Assembly: GCA_001599715.1 (NCBI GenBank)
Contig: BCHU01000012.1
Span: 682,001-746,000 of the forward strand
DNA length: 64,000 nt
DNA from: Phaeotremella fagi
Taxonomy: Eukaryota; Basidiomycota; Tremellomycetes; Tremellales; Phaeotremellaceae
Direction of reading: 5' to 3'
Shown: positions 1,655 through 42,081 of the stretch, one piece after another
Position numbering within the stretch: the stretch's first letter is position 1
Layout of the letters: every line of letters starts with the position of its first letter
Made by a program: the position numbers and the translations under genes
Notes under the pieces: generated by a model
Databases searched by the model: none
What the model saw: only the letters and a program-made list of their open reading frames with translations
Told to the model about the DNA's origin: nothing

Positions 1655-4600
1655 ATGTCAGCATATTCAAAAGGCACAAGAGTCTGGCTCCCAGATCCAA
1701 CAACAGGTTGGATCCCAGCAACAGTAACCTCCATAACCATCCCCGCAGACCCTCAACCAACATCAGAAGTAATCCTAGAAGTAACATACGACGAAGGAAC
1801 TTCAGATGAATCTTCCAAATCTTTAAGATTCCCTTATTCAGTCTTAGTGTCAGCTACATCAGATGGGGCTGCTGTAGGTAACGTCCATCCTACAACTCCT
1901 CCACCCGGTCAGGACGCTTTACCCCCTTTGAGGAATCCACCTTTGTTAGAGAGTTCAGAGGATTTGGCAGGTTTGAGTAATTTGAATGAACCTTCTGGTA
2001 TGTCTTTTTTTTTGTTTTCCGATGAGAAGGAAAGGATCGTTGATGTGATGCGAAAATTATTTTATTCATTTAGTTTTACACGCTATCGCAACTAGATATG
2101 CTTTACATTTGCCATATACCTATTCAGGTATTGTTTTGGTGGCATTAAACCCTTTTAGTCCTCTTGCTATTTGTAAGTCTGTTTAAGGGATTTTTATTAC
2201 TCTCACTGACGTTGAAAAAAACAGATGGTCCACAGGTCATCCAAGCTTATTCTGGGAAAAAGAAGGGCGATCTGGAACCTCATTTATTCGCTATCGCAGA
2301 AGAAGCGCTGGATTGTATGAGAAGAGGTAAAGGTGGTGGAGGAAAAGATCCAACTGGTGCAGGCGATCAAACTATCGTCGTCAGTGGAGAGAGGTCAGTC
2401 ATCAGGTTCCGGCACGAGATTAATAAACTGATTAAAACCATTATAGTGGTGCTGGAAAAACAGTTTCTGCCAAATTCATTTTACGATATTTCGCGTCGGT
2501 TGAAGATCCTGCTAAAGCTGGTACACTGAGACGGAGAGGGACTGATGCCGGTTTAAATGGTGGCGAGGAAGATGGAATGTCGGAGACTGAAAAACAAATT
2601 TTGGCTAGTAACCCTATCATGGAAGCTTTTGGTAATGCTAAAACAACTAGGAATGATAATTCTTCTAGATTTGGTAAATATATCGAAGTAAGTTTAGACC
2701 CTATCCAGAAATCAGGCGAAGCTGATTCACGAATATAGATTCTTTTCGATAATACCCATGACATTGTTGGTGCTCGCGTGAGAACCTATCTACTCGAAAG
2801 ATCTAGATTAGTCTATCAACCGGAATCAGAGAGAAATTATCATATCTTCTATCAGCTTCTTGCAGGTGCCCCTTCAAAGGAACGTAAAGATTTATCGTTA
2901 TCGACAGATTTCCAATCGTTCGCGTATCTAGCTGGAGGTGGACCCAGTTCAACCCCTATCCCAGGTGTCGATGACGCCAAAGAATTCCGTGATACCCAAA
3001 CAGCGCTATCAACAGTCGGTATAGCTATCGATAGACAATGGCATATCTTCAGATTACTGGCTGCATTGTTACATCTTGGAAACATCAAAATTACTCAAGC
3101 TAGAACAGACGCCGTTCTATCGGACGACGATCCGGCTCTGGCTTTGGCAACTAATCTTTTGGGTTTACCTGCTTCCGATTTCAAGAAATGGACAATCAAA
3201 AAACAATTGATCACTAGGAATGAAAAGATTGTCACTGCTCTTGGTTCAGCTCAAGCTTCGGTCGTTAGGGATTCAGTTGCTAAATTCGTTTATTCATGTT
3301 TGTTCGATGTGAGTTGTTGAGTTTTGATGGTTTTGCTGATTTGCAGTGGCTCGTTGGTGTCGTCAATGAAAGTTTGGGTGGTGAGGGTGGTAGTGGTGCT
3401 CAAAAAGCTACTAAATTTATTGGAGTTCTTGATATCGTAGGTTACAATTTTGTGATCGATCCGTGTTTAACTAAAATTGTCCTAGTATGGATTCGAACAT
3501 TTCAAGAAAAATTCTTTTGAACAGTTCTGTATCAATTGGGCAAATGAGAAACTCCAACAGGAGGTAAGTTTTGGTTATGGACATTACTGATGGAAAGTTT
3601 AACGCGCATGTGTTTAAAGTAAGTTGGATTACGGATAGACGACTGACCGTGTAGCTTGAACAAGAGGAATACGTTCGAGAGCAGATCAATTGGACGTTCA
3701 TCGATTTCGCCGATAATCAAGCTGTTATAGATGTTATCGAAGGAAAGATGGGTATTCTTACACTTCTCGACGAAGAGTCGCGTCTACCTGCAGGAGCAGA
3801 CGCCTCGTTCGCTTCCAAGTTACATCAACAACTTGCTAAACCAGAACATAAAGAAGTATTCAAGAAGCCCAGATTCAACCAGAACGCTTTCACCATCGCT
3901 CATTACGCTCACGATGTTACTTACGACGTTGACGGATTCATCGATAAGAACAGGGATACAGTTCCTGATGAACATTTAGCTCTTTTACAAAATTCATCCA
4001 ACGAGTTTTTGAAGGAGGTTTTGGATGCTGCTTTGGCTGCTGCCACTGCTGCTAAAGGTGATAACGCACCTAAAAGACCTGGTGCAGCTGTACGAAAGCC
4101 AACTTTAGGTTCTATTTTCAAGAGATCCCTCATTGATCTTATGGATACGATCAATAATACCAACGTTCATTATATTCGTTGTATCAAACCAAATGAAGCT
4201 AAGAAAGCTTGGGTTCTTGAGCCTAATCAGGTGTTATCTCAGTTGAGAGCTTGTGGTGTTTTGGAAACGATTCGAATCAGTTGTGCAGGTTACCCTTCAC
4301 GTTGGACTTTTGAGGAGTTTGCCGAAAGGTAAGAATGTTACTGTAGGGCTAAGCTAATGTTAGATATTACGTTTTGGTCAATTCGAAAGAATGGAACGCT
4401 GAAGCGGAAGTCAAAACTTTATGTGGTTTGATTCTATCAAAGACTTTGAAAGAAGAGGATAAATATCAAATTGGTTTAACGAAAATCTTCTTCCGTGCTG
4501 GTATGCTTGCTATTCTTGAAGGTTTACGTACAGCCAGAATCAATCAATTGGTCACCTTGGTTCAAAAGAATATACGTCGTAGAATCGCTTATAAACAATA

Positions 4601-7707: not shown

Positions 7708-7933
7708 TTCTTATCTTTTTTTTGGTTGGTTTGAATCGTGGTTCACTCCCTCTCTTGTCTTTTGGGTTAATGTAGGACAGGTATGGTTGATGTTGATGCC
7801 GATTTTATCACTACGAGTTCCATTTTACCCCGCGAATTTGCCACGTGGCTCGAAGAGATTTTTCAGAATTTTTGGATTTCGGTTTGACCAAAACTATTCA
7901 TTTATTGACATATACCAATTAATCACCAAAAAA

Positions 7934-10900
7934 ATGGCTCATAGTCATAGACCAACTCTCAAGCAGGTAAGTGGATGCATAGTACAAAAAGACAGTAGGA
8001 TGTATCCATTGACATGTCTTCACAGACTAACAAAGGTTTTAAATCCAAACATGCCTCCAAGGGGTCTTTGAAAGAAGCTGCCAAAGGTGAGAACCATGGT
8101 TCGATTCATGGATTTAAGTGAGTTGTATCGCTCATACGACCATAGGTAAAACCGCTTCACCGACTCTATCGAATCATCATAAATCTTCTAATAGTACTCC
8201 ATCTAAGAGAGCTAGATTGAACGCTCAAGTTCAAAAACGTGAATTGAAAAGAAAGAATGTTGGTTTAGATCTAAAATTTTTCTCAACAAGTAGTGGTGGA
8301 GGTGAGTACCTCATTAAACATAGTATAGAATGTTATACTGATAGATTCAAACCTTATAGGTCAAGTACCAAGAATCGTCTCGATCATACCATTATTACCC
8401 TCACTCTCACCCAAAAAATTCCTCTCAAATTTAATACAATCGTTTGGTCTACCCGAATCAGAATTAGAGGAGATCTCATCAATCCTAACGGAACGAGGAA
8501 CCTTCTTACTTCGAGCTCCAAAATTTAAAACTTCTTTACAGATAAATTTGTTACCGAGTTTATCTGTTTACGCTACTCTTGATAGTGCTTTGGTTTCTGA
8601 TTACGTTGTGCTGTTACTTAGTAGTGTTGATGAGGTTCAGTTGGAGGGTGAAGCTGTCTTACGTTGTTTACAGGGTCAGATTGGGGGTGCTGAAGTGGTA
8701 TCTTGTGTTCAGGTTAGTTCCGATTTTATCTGGTAGTACGAGCAACTGTTCTAACTGAATCGCAACTCTTTAGGCACCAGCTGAAAACCCAATTACACCT
8801 TCGACAAAACAGTTGATTCATAAATCTTTGTTATCGTTCACCAAATACTTCTTTCCTTCGGTGGAAAAAATTCATTCATCAGATACACCTAATGAAGCAG
8901 CTTTATTGGCTAGAGCTTTATGTGAAGCTGTACCAGGAGGAAATAGGGATGATAGCAGTCGAGCTTTTATTGTTGCTGAGGATGTTCAGTTTGGTGTCAA
9001 TGGGGTCGGAGAGGATGGGTTGGAATTAGGACAGCTACAGGTTACAGGTACAGTACGTGGTGGATGTTTGAGTGCGGATCGATTAGTCCATATTCCTGGA
9101 CATGGTGATTTCCAAATAGAATCTGTGAGTTGTTCAAGGGAACATTAGGATGTTGTGACTGACGTATGTCTTAGATTCTACCAGCACCCCCTTCCAGTCT
9201 TTCATTAGCAGCAAAACGTCATCAACAAGCATCACAGATGGCTGTTGAACCTTCTTCTCAACCACTTTCAACACCTACTGAGGCAGCAGATGATCTTACC
9301 GCAACGAACACACCAGATCTCATGAACAATGAACAAACTTGGCCAACCGAGGAGGAGATGGAACATGGAAACGCTTTAGCTAGTAGTTCCGGTGAAAAGA
9401 AACGGACCAAGAGGGTGCCAAAGGGTACGAGTGCTTATCAAGCTGCTTGGATCTTTGATGATGAAGATGGTGAGGTTGATGATGACGAGGAATTTGATGA
9501 GGTTGATGAAGATGGAATGGAAGTTGAGGGTGATGTCGCTGAGGGTGGTGTTGCGGCTGGTTACGGAAGAGAGGTCGATGTGGAAGAAACTGAAGAGATT
9601 GAATTGGACGATCGAAGAACAGAAGTTCATTTCGATATGGATGATGAACAAGAGGAACGGGAGTGAGTTATTTGAAGAGACTGCTGTCGAACGAAACGAT
9701 ATACTGACAACAACGGCAGATATTCAACCTATCTAAGAGACAGAGAAAGAGCTCACAAAGAAGACATGATGTTCCCAGATGAAGTCGATACACCCCGTCA
9801 TATACCTGCAGCAACTCGATTCCAACGTTACAGAGGATTGAAATCTTTCCGAACAAGTCCGTGGGATCCTTATGAAAATCTACCAATCGATTACGCAAAG
9901 ATTTTCCAGTTCGAATCGTATGAAGGTACGAGGAAAAGAATTGAACGTGAAGCTAGAGAGGAGGGTGTTAAGGTTAGTACTTGTTTATCGATAGTGCTGA
10001 TTTCGCCAGGCTGGGACCAGGGTCATTGTTATTTTGAAAAACGTACCGAAGACTGTTTTCGACGAGAGAGATTCTTCCTTACCGTTCATCATTCATGGGT
10101 TACTTCAACATGAACATAAACAATCAGTTCTTCACTTCGTCGTACAGAGGAACACCGAATACACTGACCCAGTTAAAGCTAAAGTAAGTCATCGTCTCGA
10201 ACTGACTCAGGTGGAATTGACTAACTTTTTCTTCAGGAACCTTTGATATTATGTGTAGGACCTAGACGTTATACCATCAGACCAATCTTTTCACAACACG
10301 TTCGAGGAGGTGGTAAAGGGGTTAACAATGTTCATAAATCCGAAAAGTATTTGCGTCCAGGTGCAGCAACAGTTGTAACGACATTTGGACCTATCTGCTT
10401 TGGCAAAACCGGATGTCTATTACTAAAAGATGAAGGTGACGATCAAGGTGAGTTAAAGAACAACTTTCAAAATGATTCCAATTCAACTGACCATATAACG
10501 AAAAATCTAGTTCCAAGTTTGGTAGCAATGGGAAGTTTCCTTTCACCAGATCCAACCCGAATCATCAGTAAACGAATCATCTTGACCGGTCATCCGTTCA
10601 AGGTACACAAGAAAACTGCAACGATCAGATACATGTTTTTCAATAGGGACGATATCGATTGGTTCAAATCTGTCGAACTTCATACTAAATTCGGTAGGAT
10701 CGGTCATATAAAGGAAGGATTGGGTACCCATGGTTATTTCAAGGCTCATTTCGATGGACCTATACAACAGATGGATACGGTTTGTATGAGTCTTTATAAG
10801 AGACAATATCCTAAGGTCAGTTAGATTTTTTTTATTGGATTGGATTCTTGATAACTGATTGGACTGCTTAGTGGTCGGAAGATTTCAAAGCTCCAAGGAT

Positions 10901-10946
10901 CTCTTATGATGAACAAGAACAGGAAGAGAGTATGGATCTCGAATAG
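7934..10946 (+). CDS. TSR1: Ribosome biogenesis protein Tsr1
   Basis: Tsr1 is a GTPase-like (but GTPase-dead) factor of late cytoplasmic 40S maturation, related to Bms1. The start MAHSHRPTLKQ and the second exon TNKGFKSKHASKGSLKEA are the diagnostic N-terminus. The middle of the protein holds the AARP2CN region, with VRGGCLSADRLVHIPGHGDF near 9050-9110. A very acidic stretch lies around 9440-9660. The conserved C-terminal RIBIOP_C/DUF663 block follows: YRGLKSFRTSPWDPYENLP, VGPRRYTIRPIFSQH, TFGPICFGKTGCLLLK and GHPFKVHKKTATIRYMFF. The stop is TAG at 10944-10946. About nine short introns interrupt it; the first follows only 11 codons. The product is complete. Confidence 0.93.
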
Positions 10947-11176: not shown

Positions 11177-14100
11177 CTATTTACCCACAGCCAAAGACTG
11201 TAAATTTGGCATTGGCGCACCCATCCCCATCCCCCTACCAGAATTAGCAGCAGCATGAGCAATCTTCATACTAGCTCTAGCTGCTTCTGGGGAAATTTCA
11301 GTCCCACCAGTCCCATCACTACTAGTACCGAGATTAGATTTCGAAGTAGAAATAAAAGATTGTTGTAAAAGTTCAAAAGCCGTTGGTCTCTTTTGATAAT
11401 CCAATTCAAAAGTTTTAGTCAAGAATTCCGATGCCTCTGTTGAGATGTCGTTCGGGATAGCTGGTTTAGCTGATGAGCCGATCTAAACAATTTCATTCCC
11501 ATAAGTGTCTGTTTTCCATTGTTTTGGTGGAGGTAGATCTAGACTTACCCTGTACATCGCTTGCATTTGATTCAATTCTGCCCATGGATGGGTACCAGTC
11601 AGCATTTCTACCACCAAACAGCCGACACTCCAGATATCAGCTTTGGAAGTGTAACTAGTTTGTTTGACTATTTCAGGTGCCATCCAAAACACACTACCCT
11701 GTAATGAAGGTCGATTGGCTTTAGAAACGTTCATAAGATCTAGTCGTAGTCAGTACCTGTGGAATTGAAATTCAAAAGATCAGAACCCACTCGATTCGAC
11801 TTTCTTCGAAATCCCGAAATCTGAAATCTTGATACCGCCTTTATTGTCGACTAGTATATTCGCACCTTTGATGTCTCGATGAATGATTTCACGTTCATGC
11901 AGATAATTTAAACCAGTTAAAATCTGTCGAACGAAATTCCTGACTAGCGCTTCTTCGAATGCACCGTAGTTGTTTAGAAGAGCAGCTACCGAACCACCTG
12001 GGACGTATTCCAAGAAAATATTCAAATGAGCAGCGTCAGTTGATGAATCTAATTATAGGATTTGATCAATTAGCTTAACGAGACTGTCACCACAGATTGA
12101 CTGAACTTACCAAGATACTGAACAATGTTCTCATGCTGAAGTTCCTTCAACAGTTCAATCTCACGTTCCAAAGCGTCAACCATCGAACGTTTCCTCTCTT
12201 CATTTCTAGTGTTTCCAACGGGCAACTCGACTTGTTTCACAGCCATCAATAAACCTGAATGAGCGTCCATCCCCAGATAAACCGAACCAAACGATCCAGC
12301 ACCTATCAAAGCACCTTTAATCCATTTAATCGATCGTTTAGCTAAGAGTTCCATCAGTGTCAATGCCTCAATCCTTTATCCAAGTATCACTTACATCCAG
12401 TCGAAGTGTAAGCTTTCCCATGTTCTTCTTCGACTTCGTCCTCGTCCTCTTCCTCCTCATCACTATCCTCCTCTTCATCTTCATAATCATCCTCCTCCTC
12501 ACTCTCGTCATCCCCTTCATCCTCAAGTTCAGAAGTTGGTACCGAACCAGGATCAACAGCAGCGGGAACACTAACGCTCTCAACGTCAATTTCAGATTCT
12601 TCATCGCTCTCCTCAAAAGTTATCGTGCTGGCTCTACGATTTTCCATCTCTGCCGTTATCTCATCAACGGTTAATAAAGAAGCTGTGTCGGATCGATCAC
12701 GGTTTCGACGTAATTGAGACAATAGCGACATTCTTGATTTGGTCGAACCTCCGGAACCTCTTCTGGCCATGGTGATCGATTTAGGTCTTTGAGACTGTTG
12801 TGGTAATTTTGGTGAGAACACTGCGAGAGAATCCGATAATGATTCGTTGGAGGGGACGAAGGGTGGTAGCAATGGTGGTCGTGATTCTATCGATGCGACA
12901 GATTCATCTTCCGATTCACCATCAATAGTCGGCTGAACAAGTTCACCTCCATCTGTAGAAACCGATACTCTAGGTAAGAATTCTTCTTCTTCCGGAATAG
13001 GAGCTGAAGGGGGTGAAGAAATATTTTTCAACGAAGTAGATCTAGAACCTCTCTTATCACCTGCACTCGAATATGAACTCGATAAAATTGAATTCCGTTT
13101 CTCAGGTAAAGGAGGCACATCCAAAGAAGATCTAGTATGAACACTACTAGCCGACGACAATCTCTTGAAATTGTTATTCCCACTGAATTGTCCAGATTGA
13201 ACCCGTAACATCATAGATTGTCTTGCTGTCTTCTCCAATTCTTTTTTCTTGGCAGAAGGGAAATATTCTTGTAAATGATTAGAAATCAATTCGGACGGTG
13301 GTCGATGTCCAAAGAAATTATACATTTTTTTACCTCTTGACGCAAGGAATGATCCTGACGAAGGTGATTTAGCTGTACTCGGTGAAGGTGGTAGTTCAGA
13401 TACCGGTACACCTAAACCAGACATTATCGAAACTGTACTAGCGCGATTCATTTTTTTGCTGGTCGAGGAGGATTGAGAAAGAAGATTCATCGGTGGTGTC
13501 ACATAATGGGTAGGCGATGTTGGTGACATTGGTGGAACGTCGCCAAGGAATGTTTCCATGTTTTTACGATTTTGAAGTTTTCTCGTACGACGTAATGTCA
13601 ATGTTTGGGGTTGTGAACCATCTCGATTTGCGGTTACATTCTTTCCGTGACAGATTGCAAGCAGTTTAGCTTCAGATAGTGGATGGCCTTTGAAGAATAG
13701 TCAGTGATCCCACCCCAAAACTCAACTTTAGCACTTACTGTCGTCGTCAGGATCAGTTTCAGCATATAAACCCCAACCATCAACTTCCAATCTTTCACCA
13801 TCCTCATCGGATTCCGTATCAGTTCCAGTAGAAACAGAGCCAACCGACCATTTATTGAATTTCTTCAAAACCTTCTCCAGAACATCCACACCACTCGTAC
13901 AACTGGTCATCTCCATAGTTCTAGTACTACTATCATCAGGATTAACGAATTTGATAAACTGTCTGGTTCCTGCTGAAGATCCTTCGTACTGACTACCAGG
14001 ATTAGTCCGTGGTCTAGAAGAAGAAGTCGAAGATGAAAACGTCGATGAGCTAGTTGGATAACCTGAAGAGTTTGAATTTCCAGATGAAGGGATTCTTTTC

Positions 14101-15521
14101 ATAGAAGTTCCAACTTCAAGTTGATTGTTCGTCGATTGATTTTCGTCATCTCGAGAACGAGGTGCAGCGAATGGATGAACTGATCCCTGGGTAGTTGAAG
14201 GTCTTCCAATCATCGCCGAGAATTTCGATTTAACGGGACTAGTTTTCCCACCTGGAACAGCGGATGCACTAGGATTCTTACGATGGATACTACTGCTACT
14301 ATCAGATCTAGGTAGTGGATGATTCCTATTGTTGTTACCGGATGAACCTGGTGCAGGACCTTTTGGTAATCCAAATTGTTGATCACTGACAGCCCAAGTT
14401 GGGGTTGAATTGAATTCATTCTGTTGTTGTCGTTGAGTGATTGAACTTGCATAAGAAGCTGCTGAAGATTGCTGTTGAATCGGTGCAGGTGGTAATGGTC
14501 TATCCAAGAAATTCGTTGAATCGTTCGTAACAGGACTAGGTGATCTACGTCCACCATCTCTACTTGGTGGAGCTCTAAGATTTGAATTAAATCTACTTCC
14601 ATTCCCATTCCCATTTCCAGTTGAAGTACCTGTTATATGAATAGTCTTCGTCGATGTCGACGAACTATTGGAACTTGGCAGTGCAGGACGAGAGGGTAAG
14701 GTCGTCGAATGGATAGGTCGAGGTGTCAAACTAGCTGATAAACTACCGTTACCGCTATCATTACTGTTGTTACCATTACCACCTTGATAAGCCAGTGGTA
14801 AATTCCTAGAAGGATTTTGATGTTGTAAATCCAATGGTGGAGGTCGAGTCGTATGTAATCTCCTACCAGCGCTACTCGAAGATGACCCATAAGGCGTAAT
14901 CAATCTATGTGAAGAATCGACAGAAGGTGATAAACCCGGTGACATAGAATCGTCAAGTGGTGGGGTAGCAGCTCCGTTTAAACGTAATTCAACCCTTGAA
15001 AGATTAGGATTATGGGGATGAGAACCGTTATTCGAAGCTCTTTTCCGTAAATCCTTAATTCCACCAAGCAATTTAACCCTCTCGCCAACTTTACTTATCC
15101 CCATCTCCTTCAAACTAGCCATGTCCAATTCCAAAATGACCTTCCCGTCAATATCATTCCTAGCGAAAACAGGCGCTAGATGTGAACATTTATGAAATGT
15201 CAGAAAAGTGGTTATCTCATTTGGACCCCAAGTTTTTAGATAAGACGAGAAAGATTGGTTGGGGGGTGGATGGAGTAGTGGCGGTGTTGATGGACGGGGG
15301 TGATTGATTGTTGAGATGGAGGCGGTTGTTGAGAGTGAGAGGGAGGAGGTTGAGTTTTGATGACGAGGTTCGCGGGTTGAAGTTAGTTGGGCTATGGAGG
15401 GGGTTACATGTTGAGCGTAGTGGATGTTGTTGGCGAAATGGGGGGAGGTTGGGGTGGTGGTGTGAGATGAAGCTGAGGAGGTTGGTGAATGTTGAGGACG
15501 AAGGGTGGTGTTGGACGACAT
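11177..15521 (-). CDS. STE11: MAPKKK of the pheromone-response pathway (Ste11/Byr2 type)
   Basis: Ste11 phosphorylates the MAPKK Ste7 in the pheromone and filamentation MAPK cascade. Reading from 15521, a Ser/Thr-rich N-terminus leads to a SAM domain (about residues 93-160, [16 protein letters not shown] ... [19 protein letters not shown]), which in this family docks Ste50-like adaptors. A long disordered Ser/Asn-rich stretch follows, then a Ras-association-like segment ([15 protein letters not shown] ... [14 protein letters not shown]) spanning the first intron. A second disordered region ends in an acidic Glu/Asp run. The C-terminal kinase has the glycine loop [12 protein letters not shown], lysine in MAVKQVELP, catalytic [17 protein letters not shown] in ISDFGISKK and activation segment [13 protein letters not shown]. 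Length is roughly 1,300 residues. A short non-kinase tail rich in Gly/Met/Ala follows the kinase. Its orthologue is a MAT-locus gene in C. neoformans. Confidence 0.9.
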
Positions 15522-16000: not shown

Positions 16001-17385
16001 CTACTTCTTAGCTTCCTCAACAGCTTTGACCAAAGAAGGAACCGCATCGAATAAATCAGCGACAAGTCCAACATCAGCAATTTGGAAAATGGGTGCATCA
16101 GCGTCCTAAACATAAAATCAGTCAATCCGTGTCTTCAACGAAATGTATATGCCTACCTTGTTGATAGCGACGATCATCTTTGATTCCTTCATTCCAGCTA
16201 AATGTTGGATTGCACCTGAGATACCAACAGCGACATAAAGTTCGGGTGCGACAACCTGTAGCATGTCAGTGATTCATCGACGTACGCGCAGAGCAGACCC
16301 ACTTTTCCAGTTTGACCAACTTGTAACGAATTATCTGCGTAGCCTGCATCAACAGCTGCTCTCGACGCACCAACGGCTATGGTGTTGTGTCAGACAGCAT
16401 TCAGATTAAATGATCGACCACTTACCAGCCCCTAATACGTCTGCCAATGGATCTAAAACTTTTTCGAAATTCTCTTGACTCTTCAAAGCTCTTCCCCCAG
16501 AAACGACTCTAGGTGCAGAGGACAAATCAGGTCTCGATGAAACTGTCAACTCTTCCGAAACATATTTTGTAGGTGCTAATTCACAATCAGCTTCAAGTCT
16601 TTCCAAAAAAACTTCATAACTAACATTCTGTTTCAACAGCTTGAATCTCCTCTGAACTAGCTGATCCACCTTCTTTATTAGCTTTATCAAAAGCCGTCGT
16701 TCTAACTGTAACGATTTTTATCGTGTCCTTGTCTGAAGATTTGATTTTAAGAATGGCGTTACCGGCGTAAATTGGTCTTGTGAAAGTATCGCCTGAAGAT
16801 TCGAGATCGATGATATCGGCAATCATGGAGACGTTGAGGGATCCTGCTAATCTTGGGAAAATGTTTTTACCGACGGCGGTGTGAGCTCCGAATAGATGTG
16901 TTATTGATTTCGATGGGAGGAACGAAGCGAGGAGGGGAGTGACGGCTGTGATGAGTTTAGTTGTAGCTAGCTTGACAGTCGATTGGATTTACTCACTCTC
17001 GGCAAGTGAATGGGAGTAGGCATCTGACGACGCTGTGTAGATTTTTGATAGACCATCGATTCTGGTCGTCAGCTAATTGTCACAAACAAAACCTTACTTC
17101 TTGACCTCGTCCAAAACACCATCGACATCAGCCTTTGAGCCAGTTACGATACCAGCAATCTACAGAATCCATTAGAACGTCGTTGATGAATTGTAAAACG
17201 CGACCTACCTCTCCATTTAATTTCTTGGCAGCAGTAACGGCGCTTAGAGAACTATCGTTCAATTTACCGGATTTGTGTTCCAGGAAGACTAGAGAGGAAG
17301 CTAGTCTACGTTGCGAGATGGAGGAGTAGGTGGATGAGGAGGATGAAGCTAATCTTGAAGCTGACTTTATTGATTGTCTGAACAT
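16001..17385 (-). CDS. ETF1: Electron transfer flavoprotein subunit alpha, mitochondrial
   Basis: ETF alpha binds FAD and passes electrons from acyl-CoA dehydrogenases to ETF-QO in the mitochondrial matrix. The start at 17385 gives [18 protein letters not shown], a basic and Ser-rich presequence, followed by [19 protein letters not shown], the usual ETF alpha opening. The middle includes [18 protein letters not shown] and then the signature FAD-binding region: [18 protein letters not shown] with [18 protein letters not shown]. The C-terminus reads [20 protein letters not shown] and ends EEAKK with TAG at 16001-16003. Several short introns are present. Size (about 340-350 residues) matches the family. 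Its orthologue, also called ETF1, is in the C. neoformans MAT locus. Confidence 0.9.
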
Positions 17386-25361: not shown

Positions 25362-27057
25362 TTAAGCCTTCGTTGCCTAAATACACATATCAGCGATCAA
25401 ATCATAAGCAACAACTCCCACACTCACTTTATCGTATAAACCTTGAACGACCCCACCCATTTGTTTCAGTGTGTCCAAAGCAGTTTGATACATGGTCTGC
25501 ACTTTTGTTAGTATGTCCCATCAAATAACAACAGGATAACGTACATCTTCCTCGATCTCTTCATAAATCTCTAAAGTTCCAACACTCTCATTTAGAACTC
25601 CATGGAAAACTTGATCTAAAATCATTTGTGACAATCTGCAATGATTCGTATCAGTCCAAAAACTAATTTACCCAATTTCCAGCTGTTGACTCACTTCTCT
25701 TCAACAATCTGTAAACTCTGTCCAACCTCTTGTGCGATCCATGTCAATTCCACCGATGAATATGGTTCAATTATTCTGACTAAGTTTTGTTCTAAAAGTG
25801 TGTCGTAGAGTTGAGATAGATGAGTTCGGATCAGTGGATCTTGTTGAAGTTCTATTCTATCGTTAGATATTTGTCGTTCGAACTAAGAATCTCAACACCT
25901 ACGTTCTTGATAATCTTTCAAAGCATTTTTGAACAGATCTAACGACCTTTCTTTAAGAGCTTTAGCGGTTGCTTTCATGGCATCCAAATCTTTTCCGGCA
26001 TGAGGTGCAGCGGCTTTGAGTAGAAGAAGTGGTTTAATGTCATCTGGCTGTGATGGAATATGTCAGTTGGTTACGAAAATGAACTGTTGAGAACCAACTC
26101 ACCACACCCAACATGATTTTACACAACAACATATATTTCAACGCTCGAAGAGCTCTAGGATCTTTATCATCATAAGAAGCCAAACCTTCGAAAGCTTCAA
26201 AGAAATAAGAATACGCCGTTTTATAATCCTTGTCATCAGCGTTGATAGCACCAGCTTGAAGATCAAGTTGAGCCTGAAGTAGAGGTGGACAATAAACTGA
26301 ATTAGCGGTTGTTCTAGCCGAAGTTAAAGCTGATTTAGCTCTAGGTAGATTCTGTATCGCATGAGCTGCACGAGATTCCAATAAATACACTTCAGTCAAG
26401 ATTATTTTATCGTCTAATCTCTTCAATTCCTTCAACAGGGAGTCGATTTTCGTTAACGCTTGTCGATGTTCTTGACTATCGAGTTGTAAACCGACTAATT
26501 TTATTTCTAGACTTTGACGAAGAAAGACTCTTTTCTCTTCTGATGCCCAAGTGATGTTTTCGTTGATGACTTTGATTTGTAAATCTCTTGCGGAAGATGG
26601 GAAATAATCAATGAGTGTTCGAACTGCCATCGAGTTAGATTACAGATGAATTTTTCACATCGAAAGGGACTTTTACTTACTGATTTTGGCCGTTTTAGCT
26701 TTAGCAATCTGTGACATGAAAGTTCTTGAATCCGAAACTAATTGAGCAAGTTGTTCGATTTGACTAAAATATTCGTTCAGCTCTGAATCACATCGGTTAC
26801 GATAGCAGTACTCACTCGCTATCCCTATACAAAGCACCAAGCTTGACCAAAGCAGTCTCCTGATCCCTCAAATCATCCTCGTCAGCTGTTTAGATAGTTA
26901 GCTTAACTACATGATCTTAACAGAGATTGGGAATGAACCAACTTGAATGCCTAGCTAGAACACTTCTGTAAATCTCCTCTGCCTGTTTGGGTTCTGATTT
27001 AGCTAAACCATTTGCTTTTTCTACTTGTTGAGCTAGGTCTATAGGTGGTATAGCCAT
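25362..27057 (-). CDS. RPN6: 26S proteasome regulatory subunit Rpn6 (PSMD11)
   Basis: Rpn6 is a PCI-domain subunit that clamps the proteasome lid to the core particle. The start at 27057 gives MAIPPIDLAQQVEKANGLAK. The TPR-like helical repeats include RTLIDYFPSSARDLQIKVI, NITWASEEKRVFLRQSLEIK, LDDKIILTEVYLLESRAAHA and LPRAKSALTSARTTANSVYC, the last being a hallmark of Rpn6. The PCI domain follows, with DPLIRTHLSQLYDTLLEQNL and EVGQSLQIVEEKLSQMILDQ. The end is split: after GLYDK a 51-nt intron leads to a last coding exon of only 15 bases (25362-25376) giving ATKA and the stop, which matches the family ending LYDKATK. Predicted size is about 430 residues. Confidence 0.92.
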
Positions 27058-27286
27058 ATTGATATCTTCTATAGGTATTCTTTGTGCTGTTTTACAGGTA
27101 TATATGGTGATGTTAAATGTTAAATACTACACAGCGACGATGATGATCTAGCTATAGGACGCGCGAGCGGGTGTTAAAGGGGGTTCAAATAAGTATTGTT
27201 AGTTGAGTGGGGCACCATTGCCACCTAAAATCTCTAACTGTAAGTTCTTCCTCCATCTCTGCATCACAATCAACACCTATCCCAAA

Positions 27287-28587
27287 ATGTCAAAAACAAA
27301 TCTACCATTACCTCAATTCTACGCTCAAACACTAACCTCCCTCTCCCCAATCCTAGATGACACAATATCAACCTCCCTCCCATCAACCCAAGAAACCCTT
27401 CAAGAAGCTATCGACAATCTGTACCTGATTTCAAGAATGTTATCGACTCTAGGTGTTTTCTCTGAGAACGAAGAAATAGATGAATTGGGAGATGGCGAGA
27501 TTGTGTTTATGACTGTTGGATGGGTGATTTCTGAGGCTGAAACTAGAGGTGGTTTGGGTGGGAGAGATGATCGAATGAAATCATTGAAGAGGAGTGAGGT
27601 ATGTATTCTGATTTCTTGGAGCTGGGTGGATGATTAATCGATGGAATTAGACGGCTATACATGCTTTCTTGGGATTATTGACGAATTATCATGTACTTTC
27701 TTCAGAGGAGGAGGCTGAAAGTTCTGCAGTGGCTTCGGGAGCTCTACCTAGAGATCCTGGTGCTAGACGAGAAGCCAAGATCCGTCAATACAAACGTGAA
27801 AAGGAATTGAAAGAGAAAATCGCCGTAAGTCAATCTATCTTCACAGATGTACTGAATGAATAGAATTCCTTATCGATACCAACTTCATCATCACCTATTG
27901 AATTCATCCAAGAAATCCTTAAACCCAAATCAAGAGCTTCAACCTCTGTCAATCCCGAATCCTCAAATCAAAGAGAATCCACACTTCTATTGCTACGACT
28001 ACTACACACAATCTCCCTAACTTCTCTTCAATCTACTGCGATGGAATTACAGATTCTATCGGAAGCACCTGCAACTATCGAAGAGATTCCTATGGACCCT
28101 AGATCGGAGAAAGAGAATCAAGATTCAACTTGGAAACTAGATCTTCAACCTGGAACCTATCGACCTCGAGAATTGATTTCAGGTGGTGGAAGGGTGTTAC
28201 GACCGTTTACTATTCTACCTAGTACGAAGAACATGTCTGATCGTGAGAGATTGCGATCGGAGGTTTTCAGGGATGGTCGGAGATTACCTACGATGACTAT
28301 TGATGAGTATCTCGAGGAGGAACAGAGACGGGGTAACATCATAACTGGTGGAGGGTGAGTTTTCTAATTCCTTTCATTCATGTTTTACTGTCATACTGAT
28401 AAATACTGATAGCCAAGCATCTTATGACGCACCAACTTCATCTGAATTATTGGAATTGGCAGCTGAACAAGATGGAACTATGGAAGCTGAAGAGAAGGGT
28501 GAAGAGAAGAGATTGAAGGAAGAAAATTGGGCTCAGTATACTGAAGCTAATCCAAGAGGGGCTGGGAACACTATGAACCGCGGTTAG
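27287..28587 (+). CDS. TAP42: Tap42/alpha4-type regulator of PP2A-like phosphatases
   Basis: Tap42 binds the catalytic subunits of PP2A and Sit4 downstream of TORC1. I chose the ATG at 27287 (MSKTNLPLPQFYAQTLTSLS) because the reading frame upstream has no ATG. The helical N-terminal domain contains AIDNLYLISRMLSTLGVFSE, FLGLLTNYHVLSSEE and the conserved ARREAKIRQYKREKELKEKI near 27755-27825. The C-terminal part has TMTIDEYLEEEQRRGNIITGG and ends ENWAQYTEANPRGAGNTMNRG-like at 28587, the characteristic Tap42 terminus. Three or four short introns are present. The length is about 380 residues. Confidence 0.9.
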
Positions 28588-29803: not shown

Positions 29804-30018
29804 GTGGTGATGGTTCGAGGTGTTTGAGAGAATTTGATTTTGGTTGAGAGAGACGACTTGTTGTACTTATATCTCGTATGCATCTTGTCAACAACTTTAA
29901 AACATATTCTATCAACACGTTCCCCATTGGGATCTGGGTATCTATCCATGGGTATATTCATTAACCATAACCATAACTCCTAATTCTCCCTATGAATCAA
30001 TATATCAGTTAAAAAAAC

Positions 30019-31130
30019 TCATTCATAAGACACAGTTGAAAAAAAAACCCACGGGATCCTGAAAACAGTGATTTCCTGTTGTTTGAAATACCGTCTGTTC
30101 TCTTCATCGATCAAAACCAAATTCAAATAATATCTCGTACTGAATTTCTTGTTGACGTCACGGAACGTAGGTGTCAATTCGAAACCACCCAAGAACAATC
30201 TTATCGGTATAGTTTCACCTCTGACTGGTGCACCGTCCATGATCTCGAATTTCGTTATGGTTTCAGATTCGTTGTATTGGTTAGGGGCTGAACCGGTTGT
30301 TTCTCTTCGAATGATTGAGAGTTCCATGTGTTTGATTTTTATTCGGACTAGGAGGAAATAGATTTTACCGACTATGACATCTTTCAGATGGTATCTGTGA
30401 GATTCGTTCAGCTTGTGATTGATCAAACGGCGTGATGACTTCCACCCCCACTTACTTCGCTTTGTTATATTCAAACTCTATATGTAAACAATCTTCAATC
30501 CCAACTTCCATCTTTATACTGGTATTAGAATCAGGTGGCATTCGATAAGAATGAACCCAAAGTTCTTTCTCTTTGATAACCTCACCCATCCTTCTAGCAA
30601 GAGTGACACGGAGGTAGTATCTAATCATAGTCAAATGGTTTAATCAACTCCTCCTCCATTTCATATTCCCACCCTAACCTACCTTAATTTAACGTTAATA
30701 CCAGAATAACTTTCATACTGCTTCTCGACGTTTTTGAAAGCGAAATCGAAACTCTGGGCCTGTCTCATTTCACCACCACTAGCAAGTTCTTGAGCCATCG
30801 AAACGAATTCGTAATGGTTACCACGATCGTAGAACAGTTCTATTGAGCCGATGAATTCAATTCTTATTCCGTCATGTTGGAATTTCTTCCCGTCTTTTAC
30901 TCGGACGTTCACCTGGAGTTGAAGTAATGATCAGTTGCAATGTAACTGTGATGCAGATGTGGGCAAAGTTGACCTACCTGACCAAGAATACTTTCACCAT
31001 CGTAGTACACAGGACTCATCTCTTTCTTATCCTTCTCACCTTTAACTTCAACTTGTTTTCTATCATCTTCACCTTGTAGTTTGATTTCCACTTCTACTGG
31101 TGCAGCTGCGAAATTGAAGAAAGCAGCCAT
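30019..31130 (-). CDS. VPS26: Retromer subunit Vps26
   Basis: Vps26 is the arrestin-fold subunit of the retromer, which recycles receptors from endosomes to the Golgi. The start at 31130 gives MAAFFNFAAAPVEVEIKLQG. Conserved blocks follow in order: NVRVKDGKKFQHDGIRIEFI, NHYEFVSMAQELASGGEM, FDFAFKNVEKQYESYSGIN, KLRYYLRVTLARRM, EVGIEDCLHIEFEYNKAKY, HLKDVIVGKIYFLLVRIKIK and GETIPIRLFLGGFELTPT. The last block is NLVLIDEENRRYFKQQEI, after which the fungal protein ends soon, here at FRIPWVFFSTVSYE. The final dozen residues may be altered by an unseen splice. Length is about 300 residues. Confidence 0.92.
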
Positions 31131-32334: not shown

Positions 32335-32371
<37 letters not shown>

Positions 32372-34409: not shown

Positions 34410-37400
34410 ATGACGACCCAAACACCAAGATCGAAATCGAAATCCAAAGCTAAACCTTTACCAGTGTCAGTGCCGTTATCACTGTTCCCAAGTGTCGAGG
34501 AAAGAGTGTTCGAATCAACTGAAATCTGGGCAAGGGATTTAAGATCTTTATTCGAACATGCTAAAGATAGATTTGGGGATGTTTCTTGGGAATCTGATTA
34601 TGTGGGTGGTAGCGGATCGATGGATTTTGATGGTGGGAACGGTGAAGAGGGAAGGATATGGGGACATAAAGGTATTTATTCATTCCATGCAATATTCTAT
34701 TTCTATGGACTGATAGGAATTGATTTTAGCTGTTATCTATGCTCGAGCTCCAAGTAAATCCATTTCTTTGAGTGATAAAATTGTGCTTCATACTGACCAG
34801 GATAACAACCTGATAGAAGCCTTTAAAGATCGTTATTTCTCTTCGAAACCTTTCTCAAAATCTCCAACTTCCCAATCCTCACCTCAACCACATCTCCTCC
34901 CACCTCTTTTCGGGAATGGAAACAGGAACACACCTTCTCCAAGTAGTTTCTCGTCTTTCAGTAAAAACGGTAATCTGAATACCAACATCAACACACACAC
35001 CAATCATGGTCTTGGGATAAGTAGGATTGGAAGTAGTTTATCTGTTGATAGTGAGAATACTATTCGTGGCAATGGGGTGGATGGGGTGATGAGGTTAACT
35101 CATGGGGATACACCTGAATTATTCGTTGCTCAATTAGAGTATGTCTTGTTTATGGTTTTTTTATGACGATGATGGTTATACTGATTATGGTTTGTAGATG
35201 GCTTTATACTGGTGAAGGATTCGGTGATGTCGTCGAATGGATCAGTGCTGAGAGTGAAAGTGGTGATCTACTTGGGGGAAGTGTTAGGGATTCTTTAGGT
35301 CGTCGTGGAAACTTGGCTGATCGAAGGGATAAGCTTGGACAAGTGAGTTTACGGTGTTTCCAACCAGATTGAAGAGAAAGTATCTGATTTATACAGGATC
35401 TTACCTACATGTGGAGAAGTAAACTCTACTGTGATGTCCGAATCCATCTCAATAGTTCCGAAAATCTAGACAACAGTGATTCTGATTCATCCGATTCATC
35501 AACGGATTCACTCTCTTCAACAGCAGTTTTCACTTCACACAGATTCATCCTCTGTTCAAGATCACCTTATTTCGCTTCGGTTCTCTTGAATCCGTCGTCA
35601 TTCCGTCCATCACATCCTAACGCAACTGCCGATATTTATCTACAAACACCACCTTTCACACCTGCATCACTACATTTCTGTCTTGGATACATGTACGCGG
35701 GACATCTAGATTTCTCAAACAGAACATTCGATCTAACGACCTCGTTTCAAATTCATAAAGCGGCTTCTTACTTGCAATTAGAAAACTTAATTCAAGAACT
35801 CGAAGCTAGGATCGTTCATGATTTCTGTCATGGGATCGATAGTGACAATGACAAATGTCATTGTAAAAAATGTCCACAGAGAATAGCGAGAGTTTGGAGA
35901 TTCGCTTCATCACCTGAAGTTGGTGCTGTGGCCCTAAGTTTGAAATGTAGGAATTATTTGGTTAAATTCTGGGGTCAAAGTTGGGGGAAAGAAGTTGCTG
36001 GTTCCGAATTGGAAGAGAGGGAGGGTTTACTTAGAGATGTTCTTGATGGTATCAATTGGAAGAATGTTGTTACTACTTTCAAATCACTTGATCAGCTTCG
36101 GACTAGGAAAGATGATGAGATAAGACTACGGGGGAGGTCAAGAATGGATTGGATAACGACGTTGGAAGATATCATTACCAAAATCGAAGATCATACAAGG
36201 TCCATACTCGTTTCTCAATTCCCAATCATAGCTGATGGAACGGAACTATGGAAATTGATAAACGACGGATTCGATAACGATATCCTAGAATCTATAATGA
36301 ACGAATTAGTTGATGGAGTCGGAAGTGCAAAAGGATGTATAGAAGGTCCAAGAATTTATCAAGCTCTGGTTTCATCGATTCTACTTAAAGTCGATCCTGA
36401 CACTTTACAAACGGCTTTACCATCTCGATCTCGTGTACGTCTACTTGTTGAGAACACGAAGAACGGTGTTTTGGGTCATATCAGACGAAGGTGGATGCAG
36501 ATTAGGGAGGCTGGTGGTTTTGCCGATTTAGAAATTTGGTTGTTGAAGGAAATCAGTGATGGTGAGTGGTGGAAGTAATTTCTCTATGCTGACTTTTCGT
36601 TAGAAATCGAAATTTCAGAAGAAGATCTTGCTACTTCAACGATGACTAATTTATCCGTACCCATGTCGATTCCTAGAAAAACACTTTCAACACGTACATT
36701 ACCCAGAACTACTTCACGAATCAGTTCACTCAGTGACGCTGCTAGTGTCAAGAGTACCAGAAGTCGAACGACGACCACAAGTAGACCTTCGACACTTCGA
36801 CCACCTCCTGAACCAAGTCTACCAGAACCATCAACAGGATTGAAAAGACTTCGTCTGAGTAGTTCAGCATCAACTAATTCAGCTGCTAGTTCATCTAGAC
36901 TGAGTTCAACAAGACCTGGACCTACACCACCACCTTTACCTTCGGGACCTACGGCTAGATCACCAACAGCAGCTAAACCGAGTACTTTGGTACCGGTTGG
37001 TTCTGTGCGGGCGAGAGTCGCTGCTGCGAATCGTGCCGCTGCTGCTTCACCTACACCGATCAAGGTCCCTCCTAGACCTATTCTTAGTGGTGGACCTAGA
37101 CCTCTACTGGCTAGAACTCAAGTTCAACCTGATGCAGCTTCTATCGCTTCTACTAAAACTGGTAAAAGTGTCAAATCGACTGCTACCAGTACCACTACGG
37201 GTACCAGCTCTAGAACCGTACAACCTAAACCTCCAGTACCAGTGGTTAGACCTCCAATTCCGAAAACTCCTCTACCAACTAAAACTACTGTTACACCTGC
37301 GAAAGGTCAAACTCAAACTCAAACTCGCGCTCGATCTGCTTCAATAACTACCACAGCTTCTACTCGAAGTAAAGCAGCTTCGACAATTAGCAAAGCACCA

Positions 37401-38579
37401 TCGGTAGCTTCTAGGACTACCGCTACGTCAAAACCTCCAGTCCCACCTGTACCAACCACATCGAAAGTTCCGGCAAAAGCTGGAAGAACATTGTTTCCTA
37501 CTTCAAGTGGGAAGGAGACGAACCCCGTACCAAAAGGTGTATCTGCTGTTACTGCGAATCGATTAAGGAACGCTTCGAACGTTTCCACGACATCTATCAA
37601 ATCATCTCTTAAACCCTCACTCCCTTCTTCGGTTCCTTCACCTATACCTACGGCACGATCACCCTCTGGCTCAACAGATGATACCCAGGAAGCGACCACG
37701 CCATCAAATTCTCAAGTTTTAGATCCAGCTCATGAACCTAAAATCGTGAGAGCTGGATCAACACCACACACTTCACCACCTACTTCACAAATCCGAACCA
37801 CCTCTAAACCAATAACCACAATCAAAACCTTACCACCTGTCAGTAATCATTTCCCAGTGTCACATACACCAAGAACAGCGAGGAAATCATCTCAATCATC
37901 TACCCATTCGTTCTCTGGATTGAGACCACATCCGGCCTCAGCTTTTGATCCACCCAAAGAAAGACCTAAACAACCTTTCCCACCTGTTTTGACTATTACC
38001 GATGGAAGTTCACCGTTTGAGGGGTTCGGGGTCTCGTTCTATGTTGGGATACCTTGTGTTGTGTCTTTGAATCAGAAGAGGATGAGGTTCAGGGCGAATA
38101 TCAAATATATAGGTCAAATGGTTGATGTAAGTGATCACTCCATTGTAGATACAGTGACTAATATCGTGTACAACCACTCTTAGTCAAAAGGTCCATGGGT
38201 TGGAATAGAATTAGAGAAACCCGATCGAAACGATATAAAAACCTATGAAACAGGTTCCAAAGATGGAATCCATTATTTCCATTTCAGTCAACCAGAGAAC
38301 GAAAGTCAACACCATCCCAAACCATATTCGGAAATTAAGATTCGTGAAAAGAGAAGAAGGAGGATTGACGCGATTGCAGAATCACTTAATCGATCGCCAT
38401 CTGTTATTGGTGGGTTACATGGGATTGGGATTGGCCTTGGGATACAACAGAACGACGTGGGGGTGGGGATGGGGAAACGTAGTCTCAGTCCATCACTTTT
38501 CACTGAGACTGGGTTCTTGGAACCGAGGGCGATGTTCGTTCGTCCGGAGGAGATCGTTTTGGTACTTGGGGCAGAGTGA
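34410..38579 (+). CDS. BTB/POZ and CAP-Gly domain protein
   Basis: This large protein combines two protein-interaction modules. It starts MTTQTPRSKSKSKAKPLPVS. The BTB fold begins near LYCDVRIHL (35422) with FTSHRFILCSRSPYFASVLL and continues through LHFCLGYMYAGHLDFSNRTF and FQIHKAASYLQLENLIQELE. A helical BACK-like region follows (35880-36570). A very long disordered stretch (36640-38000) is rich in Ser, Thr, Pro, Ala and Arg, with repeated TSRP, TSK and PPPLP-like elements typical of microtubule-associated linkers. The C-terminus encodes a CAP-Gly domain split by an intron: a first half near FEGFGVSFYVGIPCVV and FRANIKYIGQM, then SKGPWVGIELEKP and KDGIHYFHF. The stop is TGA at 38577-38579. 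Length is about 1,290 residues. The domain pair suggests a microtubule plus-end or tubulin-binding adaptor; function is inference. Confidence 0.75.
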
Positions 38580-38827
38580 TGGGTTAGGGTTTTGGTTTTG
38601 GATTGAGCTTTTTGTTTATCGCTTTTTTTGTATATCTTGCATTATCTCACATACCATTCCTTACTTCTGTATGAACTTCCTTTTTGTAGATTTAACTGGA
38701 ACATTTATCGTTTATGTAGATTACGATTACTTTAATGACAATTTATGAATATATGTTGATTGCAAGGTCCAGCTAAACGGGTTGAAAGGTAACAAGCAGC
38801 ATAAACAATAAGTTTTCTATATCATCA

Positions 38828-40820
38828 CTAATATAGCCAACCTTCCACTTCAACCTCCCCCTCCACCCCAATCAGTTCAACAGAACAACTCCCCCCACAA
38901 TAAAAATGCGAGGTCAAAACGAATCGTTCATTCGCGTATACCTCGATAACCCCTGCATCAAAAAAGACGTCCAGCTCCAAATCTTCAATGGACCCATCGG
39001 AGAATCGCAGTAGAGTGTGTTTCCCAAATTCGAGTTCAGTTTTTACCCCGCCTTGAATAGCTTGAGGGTTGGTTTTGGAACGATCTACAACGATGATTTC
39101 GAGGTTGGGTTGGAATTTTATTTCAACTTCACCACCAACTCCGATACCCTCGATATCGGTGTAAAGACGTAACCCACAATCAGACGATGTACAAGTTAAA
39201 TTCTTATGACGATATCTTATCTCCCATGTTGAATGATTTTCGAATCTGGTCTTCATCACATTTATAGATTTGGATGTACGTTTTGAATAGATTTCAGAAG
39301 CGGGTTTGATACCTAACGTAAATAGATTTTTTGTTTGGAAGTTATAATTGAATGAAGGAATTTGTTGAAGATCCGTTTTGAGTGTACCGACAACATTTGA
39401 TTTTTGTTGGAGATAGAGTTCTCTTGGTAGAGTCATTTTTGAGGCGTAACCTTGAACTGATCTTCCGGTTGGTGTGAGGTCGTCATCAGGTATCCAACCT
39501 AGTTTTGCAATCAGTGTTGAGATACCTACGTGTTGACTTACCCCACATCAACCTTTTTCCTTTATTATCAACAAACGTCTGTGAGGCATAACTTGTTCCC
39601 CAATCTAATATCCCTTCATTGACGATCTGTAATCTAGGTCCTCCTGTATCTGATACCACCAAAACACCAGATAACCAGATTTGCCATCTAGGAACTTTCT
39701 TCTCGACACCATTTGCGTCCTGTTGAATACCAGGATACCGAATAGATTTCGAATAATCACCTTCAGAAGAGATCATGATCATCGCCACCCTTTCCCCACC
39801 ACCACCACCCAAGGGGAAATCAAAAAACCCAGAACATTCCCAATTCCATCCTCTATCCCCAGTCCATTCCGAAGACGGTAGATCAAGTTTCGGAGTAGGT
39901 TCGATTAGGTGACCTAGATATTCCCATTCGATCGGTGAGACGGGGTCGAGTTTGTAGAGGAACAACGTTGGTCCGAGTGATTTTATTCCGCCACTTATCG
40001 TTGCGTAGAGTTGTTTTTCGTTTAGGTTGAGGAGTTGGGTTAATGATTCCCAATTTGATATGTATGGATCTCGCCAACCTGTTAGTTCTTCCTGATCACT
40101 GGATTCAGTATGAAATTCGGGTTAAGATGTTCAAGGAGAATGACTTACGTTTGGTGGTCTGATCTTCAATGGGTTATTGGTATCTTTGACCCATTTCCAT
40201 CCGTCTTTGGATGTAGCTAGAGCAACAAGTTCTTGCCCATTGATATAACCAGGATTCAGACATATATCATTAATCTAAATCGAGTAAGTCTCTTGATACA
40301 TAAACCACAAGACAAATTGAATTACCGCAGAATAAACAACCATGAAACCATCGTTATCATCGAACCTCGGAATAAAGTTACCCTAACCAATATAAGTTAT
40401 CTGTTCTCAAGAAAAGTTGTTGTTGCTGAGACTAACAGTAAAAACTCCTAGTTCATCATATGAACCCCTCTCTTTATCAGGCATCAGAACAGGTTCCGGA
40501 TCTTTTTCCCAATCGACCAGATTACGAGTCCAGGAATGACCCCATCCAATCTCACGATTCCATTCTGTATAATTCGGGCACCCTGTAGAATCAATCAATC
40601 AATTCATTCAGCTGGACAAGTACAAAGACAATGAGAATCCCACATTGATAATAAATGTGATAAACTCCATTGGGATCTTGGAACGGCTACTTTCTTTCGT
40701 TAACTTGTTCTTGATTTACACACAGGAGAGGGCACCTACAGCACATGGATCGTTCATCCATCCTTTTGGTGGTGTTAAATGGATCTTTGGTCTTTGGATT
40801 TTATCTTTTGATTCTGACAT
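38828..40820 (-). CDS. Glycoside hydrolase family 32 (fructofuranosidase-like)
   Basis: GH32 enzymes hydrolyse fructosyl bonds in sucrose and fructans. The start at 40820 gives MSESKDKIQRPKIHLTPPKG. The catalytic signatures are all present: nucleophile Asp in GWMNDPCA, split by an intron from PFQDPNGVYHIYYQC; transition-state Asp in TGWRDPYISNW; and acid/base Glu in WNWECSGFFDFP. Further conserved parts are CPNYTEWNREIGWGHSWTRN, ILDWGTSYASQTFVD and DDLTPTGRSVQGYASKMTLP. A C-terminal beta-sandwich ends EVEGWLY. GWMNDPCAP is the version found in a fungal subgroup, so the substrate may differ from yeast invertase. No signal peptide is visible, which suggests an intracellular enzyme. Length is about 570 residues. 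Confidence 0.87.
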
Positions 40821-41318: not shown

Positions 41319-42081
41319 TTAGAGGTTGAGCTTCGTTCTACGCCAATGACGACGTTTGGCGTTGTACTATAAAGGAAGTTAGTTTATGTCCACTTTGGTT
41401 GGATGATGAGGGATTTGGAAAGTCCTTTCGAATTGATGATTGAATGGAATGACCAAACGATGTTCATTCATTGAATGACTTTGCTCCAAATCCCAAATGA
41501 TTTTTTGATGGTAAAAGGAAACAACACTAACTTGGATTTTGGCTAGAACGAGAATATCAGTAAATGTCCAATACAGTTTCGATCGAAAAATCAAAAACTC
41601 ACTGTCAGTCTTTAAACGGAACCATTGGGGGATAGGTCTGTTTTGTCTGGCCTTCTTGGCGAGTCTTTGCTTGATGATGAAACGCTTTTGGGAAGGCTAG
41701 AGAGGGGAGGTGTCAGTGACGTGTATATGAGTTATTCGTTTGAGATGGGGTATGGGATTTGGTCGTTTGAGTTGGGATTTGGTGATTTGTGTTGTTTTTT
41801 TGATTGCTGTTTGGAGATCTGATAAAAACAAAATGAAGCCAGATCCTTCGTTTTGTTGACGAAATCATCCTCCAGCTATAATCCATCCATTCATTTTCTC
41901 AAATGATCCAACACATCATTCCCTCTGATCGCCGTCTGAATTTCGAAAAGCGTCTTTCGATCCAACAAATCGATGTATCCAACAACAACCCTCTCCCAAT
42001 CCTGATATCCTGATATCCTGATATCTATTCCCTTCCGTCCATACGAGAGATGTTGACGAGAAGGATATGATAACTCACCAT
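41319..42081 (-). CDS. RPL39: 60S ribosomal protein eL39
   Basis: eL39 is a tiny basic protein lining the ribosome exit tunnel. It has four coding exons on the minus strand: 42079-42081 (the ATG alone), 41603-41696 (PSQKRFIIKQRLAKKARQNR ... WFRLKTD), 41532-41542 (an 11-nt microexon completing Thr and giving KIQ) and 41319-41366 (YNAKRRHWRRTKLNL and stop). Together they give exactly 51 residues, the size of eL39, with NRPIPQW and YNAKRRHWRRTK as family signatures. All introns are GT-AG. The first intron is 382 nt, far longer than its neighbours', and could hold an intronic RNA. The orthologue is a MAT-locus gene in C. neoformans. Confidence 0.92.
42001..42025. repeat. Three tandem 8-bp repeats in RPL39 intron 1
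   Basis: The unit CCTGATAT occurs three times in a row, followed by C. It lies inside the long first intron of RPL39, close to its 5' splice site on the minus strand. Confidence 0.7.

Follow-up and report, generated by a model that had tools for sequence, protein, structure and literature searches.

Genes of the window

The stretch of DNA analyzed here (the window) comprises 64,000 nucleotides of the Phaeotremella fagi genome, C12:682001-746000, where C12 is contig BCHU01000012.1 (1,046,802 bases) in an assembly of 22.6 Mb and 24 contigs. Genes were modelled with a self-trained, splice-aware script in the window and in 100 kb on either side. An initial annotation had placed six genes, MYO2, STE11, ETF1, PRT1, IKS1 and RPL39, within about 40 kb. 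Gene models together with domain and homology searches recovered all six (IKS1 as an IKS1-like kinase) between window positions 1,655 and 42,081, the latter being exactly the end coordinate given for RPL39. The assignment of the six genes to the MAT gene list of Cryptococcus neoformans agrees with PMC2873909 and PMC11980393.

At the left edge of the window lies the 3' part of NDC80 (1..1260, forward strand; Pfam NDC80_loop, 4.6e-07), and the whole gene occupies C12:680904-683260 across that edge. MYO2 follows at 1655 to about 7246 on the forward strand (models g044 and g045, counted as a single gene); it encodes a class V myosin with Pfam Myosin_head and DIL domains, and its closest PDB sequence matches were class V myosins. 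TSR1 (7783..10946, forward; Pfam AARP2CN and Tsr1_G-like) does not appear in the available portion of the published MAT gene list. The MAPKKK gene STE11 (11177..15521, reverse) has SAM and Pkinase domains and a Ras-binding match (Ras_bdg_2) under the cut-off, and its last exon had no match in the PDB sequence search. ETF1 (16001..17385, reverse), for the electron transfer flavoprotein alpha subunit, has the Pfam ETF domain, and the Pfam pair PF01012/PF00766 is carried by the 120 homologues among the matches listed.

The gene at 18493..22257 (forward; models g049 and g050) contains a Pfam PHD domain and a BAH match under the cut-off; it is probably ZNF1 of the published pheromone/receptor (P/R) region, a name that we infer. 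PRT1 (22422..25012, reverse) was identified from PDB sequence matches, 12 of 12 being eIF3 subunit B, and the exon tested gave no Pfam family. RPN6 (25362..27907, reverse; Pfam RPN6_N) and VPS26 (29980..31130, reverse; Pfam Vps26) come next. The following gene, at 31388 to about 34373 on the forward strand, has a fragmented model. Joined exon pieces gave a Pkinase domain, and the first exon, tested singly, had no Pfam match; we call the gene IKS1-like from its position and its naming in the initial annotation, its sequence giving a protein kinase domain only. A single N, at window position 32238, lies within a repetitive proline/glutamine-coding stretch of this gene.

BSP3 (34410..38579, forward) has a BTB domain and a CAP-Gly match just under the cut-off, with two more exons giving no Pfam match. 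BSP3 and the probable ZNF1 are two further genes of the published block inside the window that the initial annotation had not named. A GH32 hydrolase gene (38828..40820, reverse; Pfam Glyco_hydro_32C) separates BSP3 from RPL39 (41319..42081, reverse), whose four exons were placed by eye; a tblastn query with an RPL39 consensus matched at 93% over the last 15 residues. Pfam thus upheld the identities of TSR1, RPN6, VPS26 and GH32, which had been described as a background of non-MAT genes. When single exons were searched against Pfam in three batches, no family was found for 4 of 10, 3 of 10 and 3 of 10 exons. A conjectured name for model g021, UBP6, found no Pfam support and was dropped.

The pheromone/receptor locus and the HD1-like gene

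None of the genome-wide profile matches to STE3, the KN homeobox, STE12, PBD or the homeodomain fell in the window, and a CAAX scan of single-exon frames of 25-90 residues found no match there, in agreement with the earlier remark that the window holds no STE3, pheromone, STE12, STE20 or SXI gene. A link to a pheromone/receptor region had been proposed, with a search for STE3, STE20, STE12 and CAAX pheromone genes within 100 kb. All four kinds were found to the left on the same contig, in a P/R locus at C12:621-647 kb, 35-60 kb from the window.

From left to right, this locus contains a first STE12 gene (STE12_1; C12:621445-623663, reverse), a pheromone gene (MF; C12:629550-629732, forward), a DBP10-like helicase gene (C12:629956-632529, reverse), a second STE12 gene (STE12_2; C12:634211-637309, reverse), STE3 (C12:638034 to about 639300, forward), STE20 (C12:639766-642305, reverse; PBD at 641.5 kb, kinase motifs recognized by eye) and a gene for a C2/MUN protein (C12:642737-647330, reverse). 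STE12_2 adjoins STE3 and is transcribed divergently from it. The STE3 gene is unbroken and encodes 383 amino acids (PF02076, E 6.7e-56); its best match was C. gattii WM276, in a comparison where the mating types of the rows are not given. We take WM276 to be MATalpha. Between STE20 and MYO2 lie 15 gene models, including the C2 protein, ATG7 (C12:663183-665962, about 24 kb from STE3) and NDC80 (about 42 kb from STE3), and MYO2 starts 44 kb to the right of STE3. To the left of the locus, C12:612255-618956 holds a 1,911-aa gene model with a myosin head, which we presume is perhaps a chitin synthase with a motor domain.

The pheromone gene was detected by the CAAX scan. Its predicted precursor has 60 residues and contains EDGQYRSGPTAQCVI twice, the repeat units being identical at 40 of 51 bases over the compared stretch. 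The first copy is followed by SYTASEV and the second by A and the stop codon, so that the terminal CAAX box, CVIA, stands only on the last copy. Precursors of C. heveanensis, by contrast, have 39 residues (PMC2873909). The Pfam pheromone profile missed the gene, and its sole match was a weak one on C1 (E 0.52). No second gene like this pheromone was matched in the genome, in a search that would miss an unlike pheromone.

To the right of the window, three genes that belong to the C. neoformans MAT locus or its edge extend the block: LPD1, for dihydrolipoyl dehydrogenase (C12:760852-762842), a GEF1-like gene between 760 and 793 kb of C12 (RhoGEF E 0.0074, under the Pfam cut-off) and RUM1 (C12:786630-792572; JmjN/ARID/PLU-1).

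The KN (HD1-type) homeobox had one genome match, at 57 kb of C1, in an HD1-like gene; a neighbouring open frame runs divergently from it. This frame was recognized by eye and was not identified by profile as HD2; none of the seven homeodomain matches in the genome lies on C1. One of the seven, at C12:365303-365449 (29.6 bits), is 273 kb to the left of STE3. The HD1-like gene is about 57 kb from the start of the C1 contig, and Kwoniella HD loci are mostly subtelomeric (PMC12510652). The P/R locus and the HD1-like gene sit on different contigs, and the locus looks unlinked to HD. A fused bipolar MAT locus of the C. neoformans type was set aside because the only KN homeobox is on C1 and none is in the block; the homeodomain match on C12 is outside the block as well.

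The window had been described as either one flank of the locus or a block detached from it. The outcome that would have refuted the link, STE3 and pheromone genes on another chromosome, was not observed: both are on C12. The window is therefore a flank, and the detached block falls away.

The window as a flank of the locus

The arrangement resembles that of Kwoniella (Cryptococcus) heveanensis, in which a P/R region of about 180 kb carries STE3, MFA1, STE11, STE20, STE12, ETF1, ZNF1, PRT1, MYO2, IKS1, RPL39, BSP3, LPD1, GEF1 and others (PMC2873909). Both have STE3, a single pheromone gene with a CVIA end, STE12 and STE20 (PMC2873909, PMC12510652), linked to STE11, ETF1, PRT1, MYO2, IKS1, RPL39, BSP3 and LPD1 at the scale of about 180 kb, with the HD genes unlinked. 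P. fagi differs in its two STE12 genes and in the two peptide units of its longer pheromone precursor. With the fused MAT locus of C. neoformans and C. gattii it shares MYO2, STE11, ETF1, PRT1, IKS1, RPL39, BSP3, STE12, STE20, STE3, a pheromone gene, LPD1 and RUM1 (PMC2873909, PMC11980393), whereas the block here has no KN homeobox. In Tremella mesenterica and Papiliotrema (C.) flavescens, STE3 and STE12 are adjacent and divergent, as STE3 and STE12_2 are here, and STE20 and MF are nearby as well; the available part of that account mentions one STE12, against two in P. fagi (PMC4374795).

The Kwoniella P/R locus measures 29.3 kb on average and has nine shared genes; BSP3 was added to it in clade G, and several locus genes of Cryptococcus clade B lie just outside the locus in Kwoniella (PMC12510652). 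Locus tags agreed with such linkage, STE3 and ETF1 being 34 tags apart in Kwoniella CBS 9459 and STE12 and ETF1 31 tags apart in K. bestiolae. DBP10, the C2 protein, ATG7 and NDC80 are P/R-locus genes common to Kwoniella (PMC12510652), and their presence in the same neighbourhood here suggests that their proximity predates the genus.

ETF1 was 74-78% identical to its homologues in Saitozyma, Kwoniella, Papiliotrema, Naematelia, Dioszegia and Tremella and 64% identical to that of C. neoformans. In a tree of the query and 25 of the 120 homologues among the matches listed, 11 Cryptococcus/Kwoniella rows grouped together (84/90) without P. fagi, the rest having no resolved order. In a STE3 tree of 14 of the 17 matches, three Cryptococcus/Kwoniella rows formed a 100/100 group that excluded P. 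fagi. Judged by these sequences, the lineage apparently falls outside the sampled Cryptococcus and Kwoniella species.

The window is thus very probably the right flank of a P/R mating-type locus in a Tremellales fungus apparently outside the sampled Cryptococcus and Kwoniella. The gene identities, their order and linkage and the placement of the HD1-type gene on another contig are read directly from the assembly. Under this reading, the locus itself (STE12, MF, DBP10, STE12, STE3, STE20 and the C2 protein; C12:621-647 kb) would set mating type: a prenylated pheromone would leave the cell, the partner's STE3 would receive the signal, and the response would presumably pass through a STE20-STE11-MAPK-STE12 chain. 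The window genes, mostly housekeeping, would be long-time neighbours of the locus, and the lineage of C. neoformans would later have taken these genes into its large MAT locus. We infer that the window recombines and that its gene order is ancestral; it is most likely outside the non-recombining core. In C. heveanensis, STE11, ZNF1 and IKS1 hardly differ between mating types (PMC2873909).

What counts against this reading is that the gene order differs from that published for Kwoniella, in which ATG7 and NDC80 are inside the locus (PMC12510652), whereas here they are away from STE3. Either P. fagi has a larger locus or its locus did not take those genes in. The homeodomain match on C12, 273 kb from STE3, and an HD2 partner that no profile identified also weigh on this side. 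A rival reading puts the window within a non-recombining P/R locus that has expanded, as it has in tetrapolar Cryptococcus (84.5-101.5 kb); we consider this unlikely. In its favour, the locus of Cryptococcus clades B and D includes MYO2 and RPL39 (PMC12510652), trans-specific polymorphism has been described for MYO2 in Cryptococcus (PMC9296135), and the distance from STE12_1 to RPL39 is about 103 kb in P. fagi. However, published expansions in Cryptococcus accompany a drop in GC content, and none centred on the locus was found within C12:582-846 kb by comparison with the flanks. GC was 40-44% throughout C12:620-724 kb. Among gene models scoring at least 40, GC3 was 0.38 around STE3 (7 genes) and 0.36 between there and the window (12). 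The window itself had 0.33 in its first 42 kb (14) and 0.35 beyond that (5); the outer stretches had 0.35 (left, 12) and 0.38 (right, 28). The single pheromone gene found, as in Kwoniella, also speaks against an expanded locus.

That the cluster arose by chance or is functionally neutral, with no relation to mating type, is hardly credible: most of the six genes are housekeeping genes and unrelated genes are interspersed, but clustering of this kind has a hypergeometric p of 2.7e-11 (at least 6 of 25 MAT genes among 20 of 7,500 genes, all three inputs being our rough figures), STE3, pheromone, STE20 and STE12 genes are on the same contig, and the idea was set aside once extension along the contig showed these mating-type genes.

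Similar flanks have been published for Kwoniella and C. heveanensis, and the arrangement is a known one in a new lineage. The flank, ordinary in kind, is useful for that lineage: it is further evidence from the Tremellales that the P/R locus already had beside it genes which the MAT locus of C. neoformans captured later. The pair of STE12 genes was unexpected and is the part worth following.

Two STE12 genes in one locus

The P/R locus contains two complete, divergent STE12 genes 10.5 kb apart, some 45-61 kb to the left of the window, and the STE12-type DNA-binding domain had no genome match beyond those at 623 and 636.5 kb of C12. Both genes were modelled by hand, each following the reading frames of the other. 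The predicted proteins have 538 (STE12_1) and 850 amino acids (STE12_2); STE12_1 may lack part of its C-terminus, and another open model (g018) lies just downstream. Each gene has 13 exons, is free of internal stops and encodes a STE DNA-binding domain and two C2H2 fingers. The introns are GT-AG in 23 of 24 cases and GC-AG in one. The two proteins share 53% identity across 302 positions that include the DNA-binding domain and 69% across 238 domain and finger positions.

Trees were built from 29 of the 120 rows among the matches listed (2,283 matched in all): 22 named Tremellomycetes, three unnamed rows and four outgroups, with other unnamed rows left out. STE12_2 grouped with Kwoniella and Cryptococcus STE12 in three trees (89/78, 92/80 and 91/80); in the tree of domain and finger columns, the Kwoniella rows fell in no supported place relative to STE12_2. 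STE12 is described as alpha/A1-like in C. heveanensis CBS 569 and T. mesenterica (PMC2873909) and in C. depauperatus (PMC9296135). STE12_1 grouped with Papiliotrema laurentii, Naematelia encephala, K. dendrophila and the Trichosporonales (100/100 in both the first tree and the domain/finger tree). It still joined Papiliotrema, Naematelia and the Trichosporonales when K. dendrophila was removed (100/100), and Papiliotrema, Naematelia and K. dendrophila when the Trichosporonales and Naganishia were removed (100/100). K. dendrophila is described as having an a2-like left side of the locus (PMC12510652). By these groupings, STE12_2 would belong to the alpha/A1 class and STE12_1 to a second class that includes K. 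dendrophila.

A recent duplication was rejected: constraining the two genes to be sisters cost 59.7 log-likelihood units (p-AU 1.6e-05), and 51.3 units (p-AU 9.8e-07) over 246 DNA-binding and zinc-finger columns. Placement of STE12_1 inside the alpha class was rejected as well (p-AU 5.6e-21). These AU tests were run after the first STE12 tree was known. It counts against the class reading that the longest STE12 branches are those of STE12_1 and K. dendrophila and that the tree program issued a warning about long-branch joining.

The three Trichosporonales rows belong to the second class, and STE12 in that group is not mating-type-specific at that depth (PMC6730849); this distribution fits an old gene pair as well as it fits two alleles. 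Among the matches listed, the best 120 of 2,283, seven of eight Kwoniella strains had the first class only, one had the second only and none had both, in a count where truncated genes may be unannotated. A tentative reading is that the a and alpha STE12 'alleles' of Tremellales go back to an ancient gene pair in the P/R locus; each mating type or lineage would later have kept one of the two, and P. fagi both. We think this rather unlikely. Alternatively, recombination within the locus may have brought an a-class STE12 into an alpha-type haplotype. No description of two complete STE12 copies in one locus was found in a literature search. In some a2 strains STE12 is truncated, and pieces of it flank STE3 on either side (PMC12510652), in contrast to the two complete genes of P. 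fagi.

The pair could also be an artefact if the assembler had merged two haplotypes into one mosaic contig: a haplotype switch in a rearranged locus of a heterozygous assembly could pair an a-side with an alpha-side STE12. We hold this to be decidedly unlikely. The sequence runs for 264 kb with no gap besides the one N in the IKS1-like gene, and, apart from three diverged STE3-like genes on C3, a single STE3 gene was found in the genome, along with one match to this pheromone (an unlike one would be missed) and one KN homeobox, so that there is no sign of a second haplotype. If the STE12 pair is real, the origin of the deep STE12 polymorphism becomes directly testable.

The three STE3-like receptor genes form a cluster at C3:583001-592500; the one compared was at most 21% identical to the STE3 rows. 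No CAAX frame was found in these 9.5 kb (single-exon frames, 25-90 residues). Some of the six-frame matches contain stops, which may be introns, and a further predicted membrane protein lies among the three genes.
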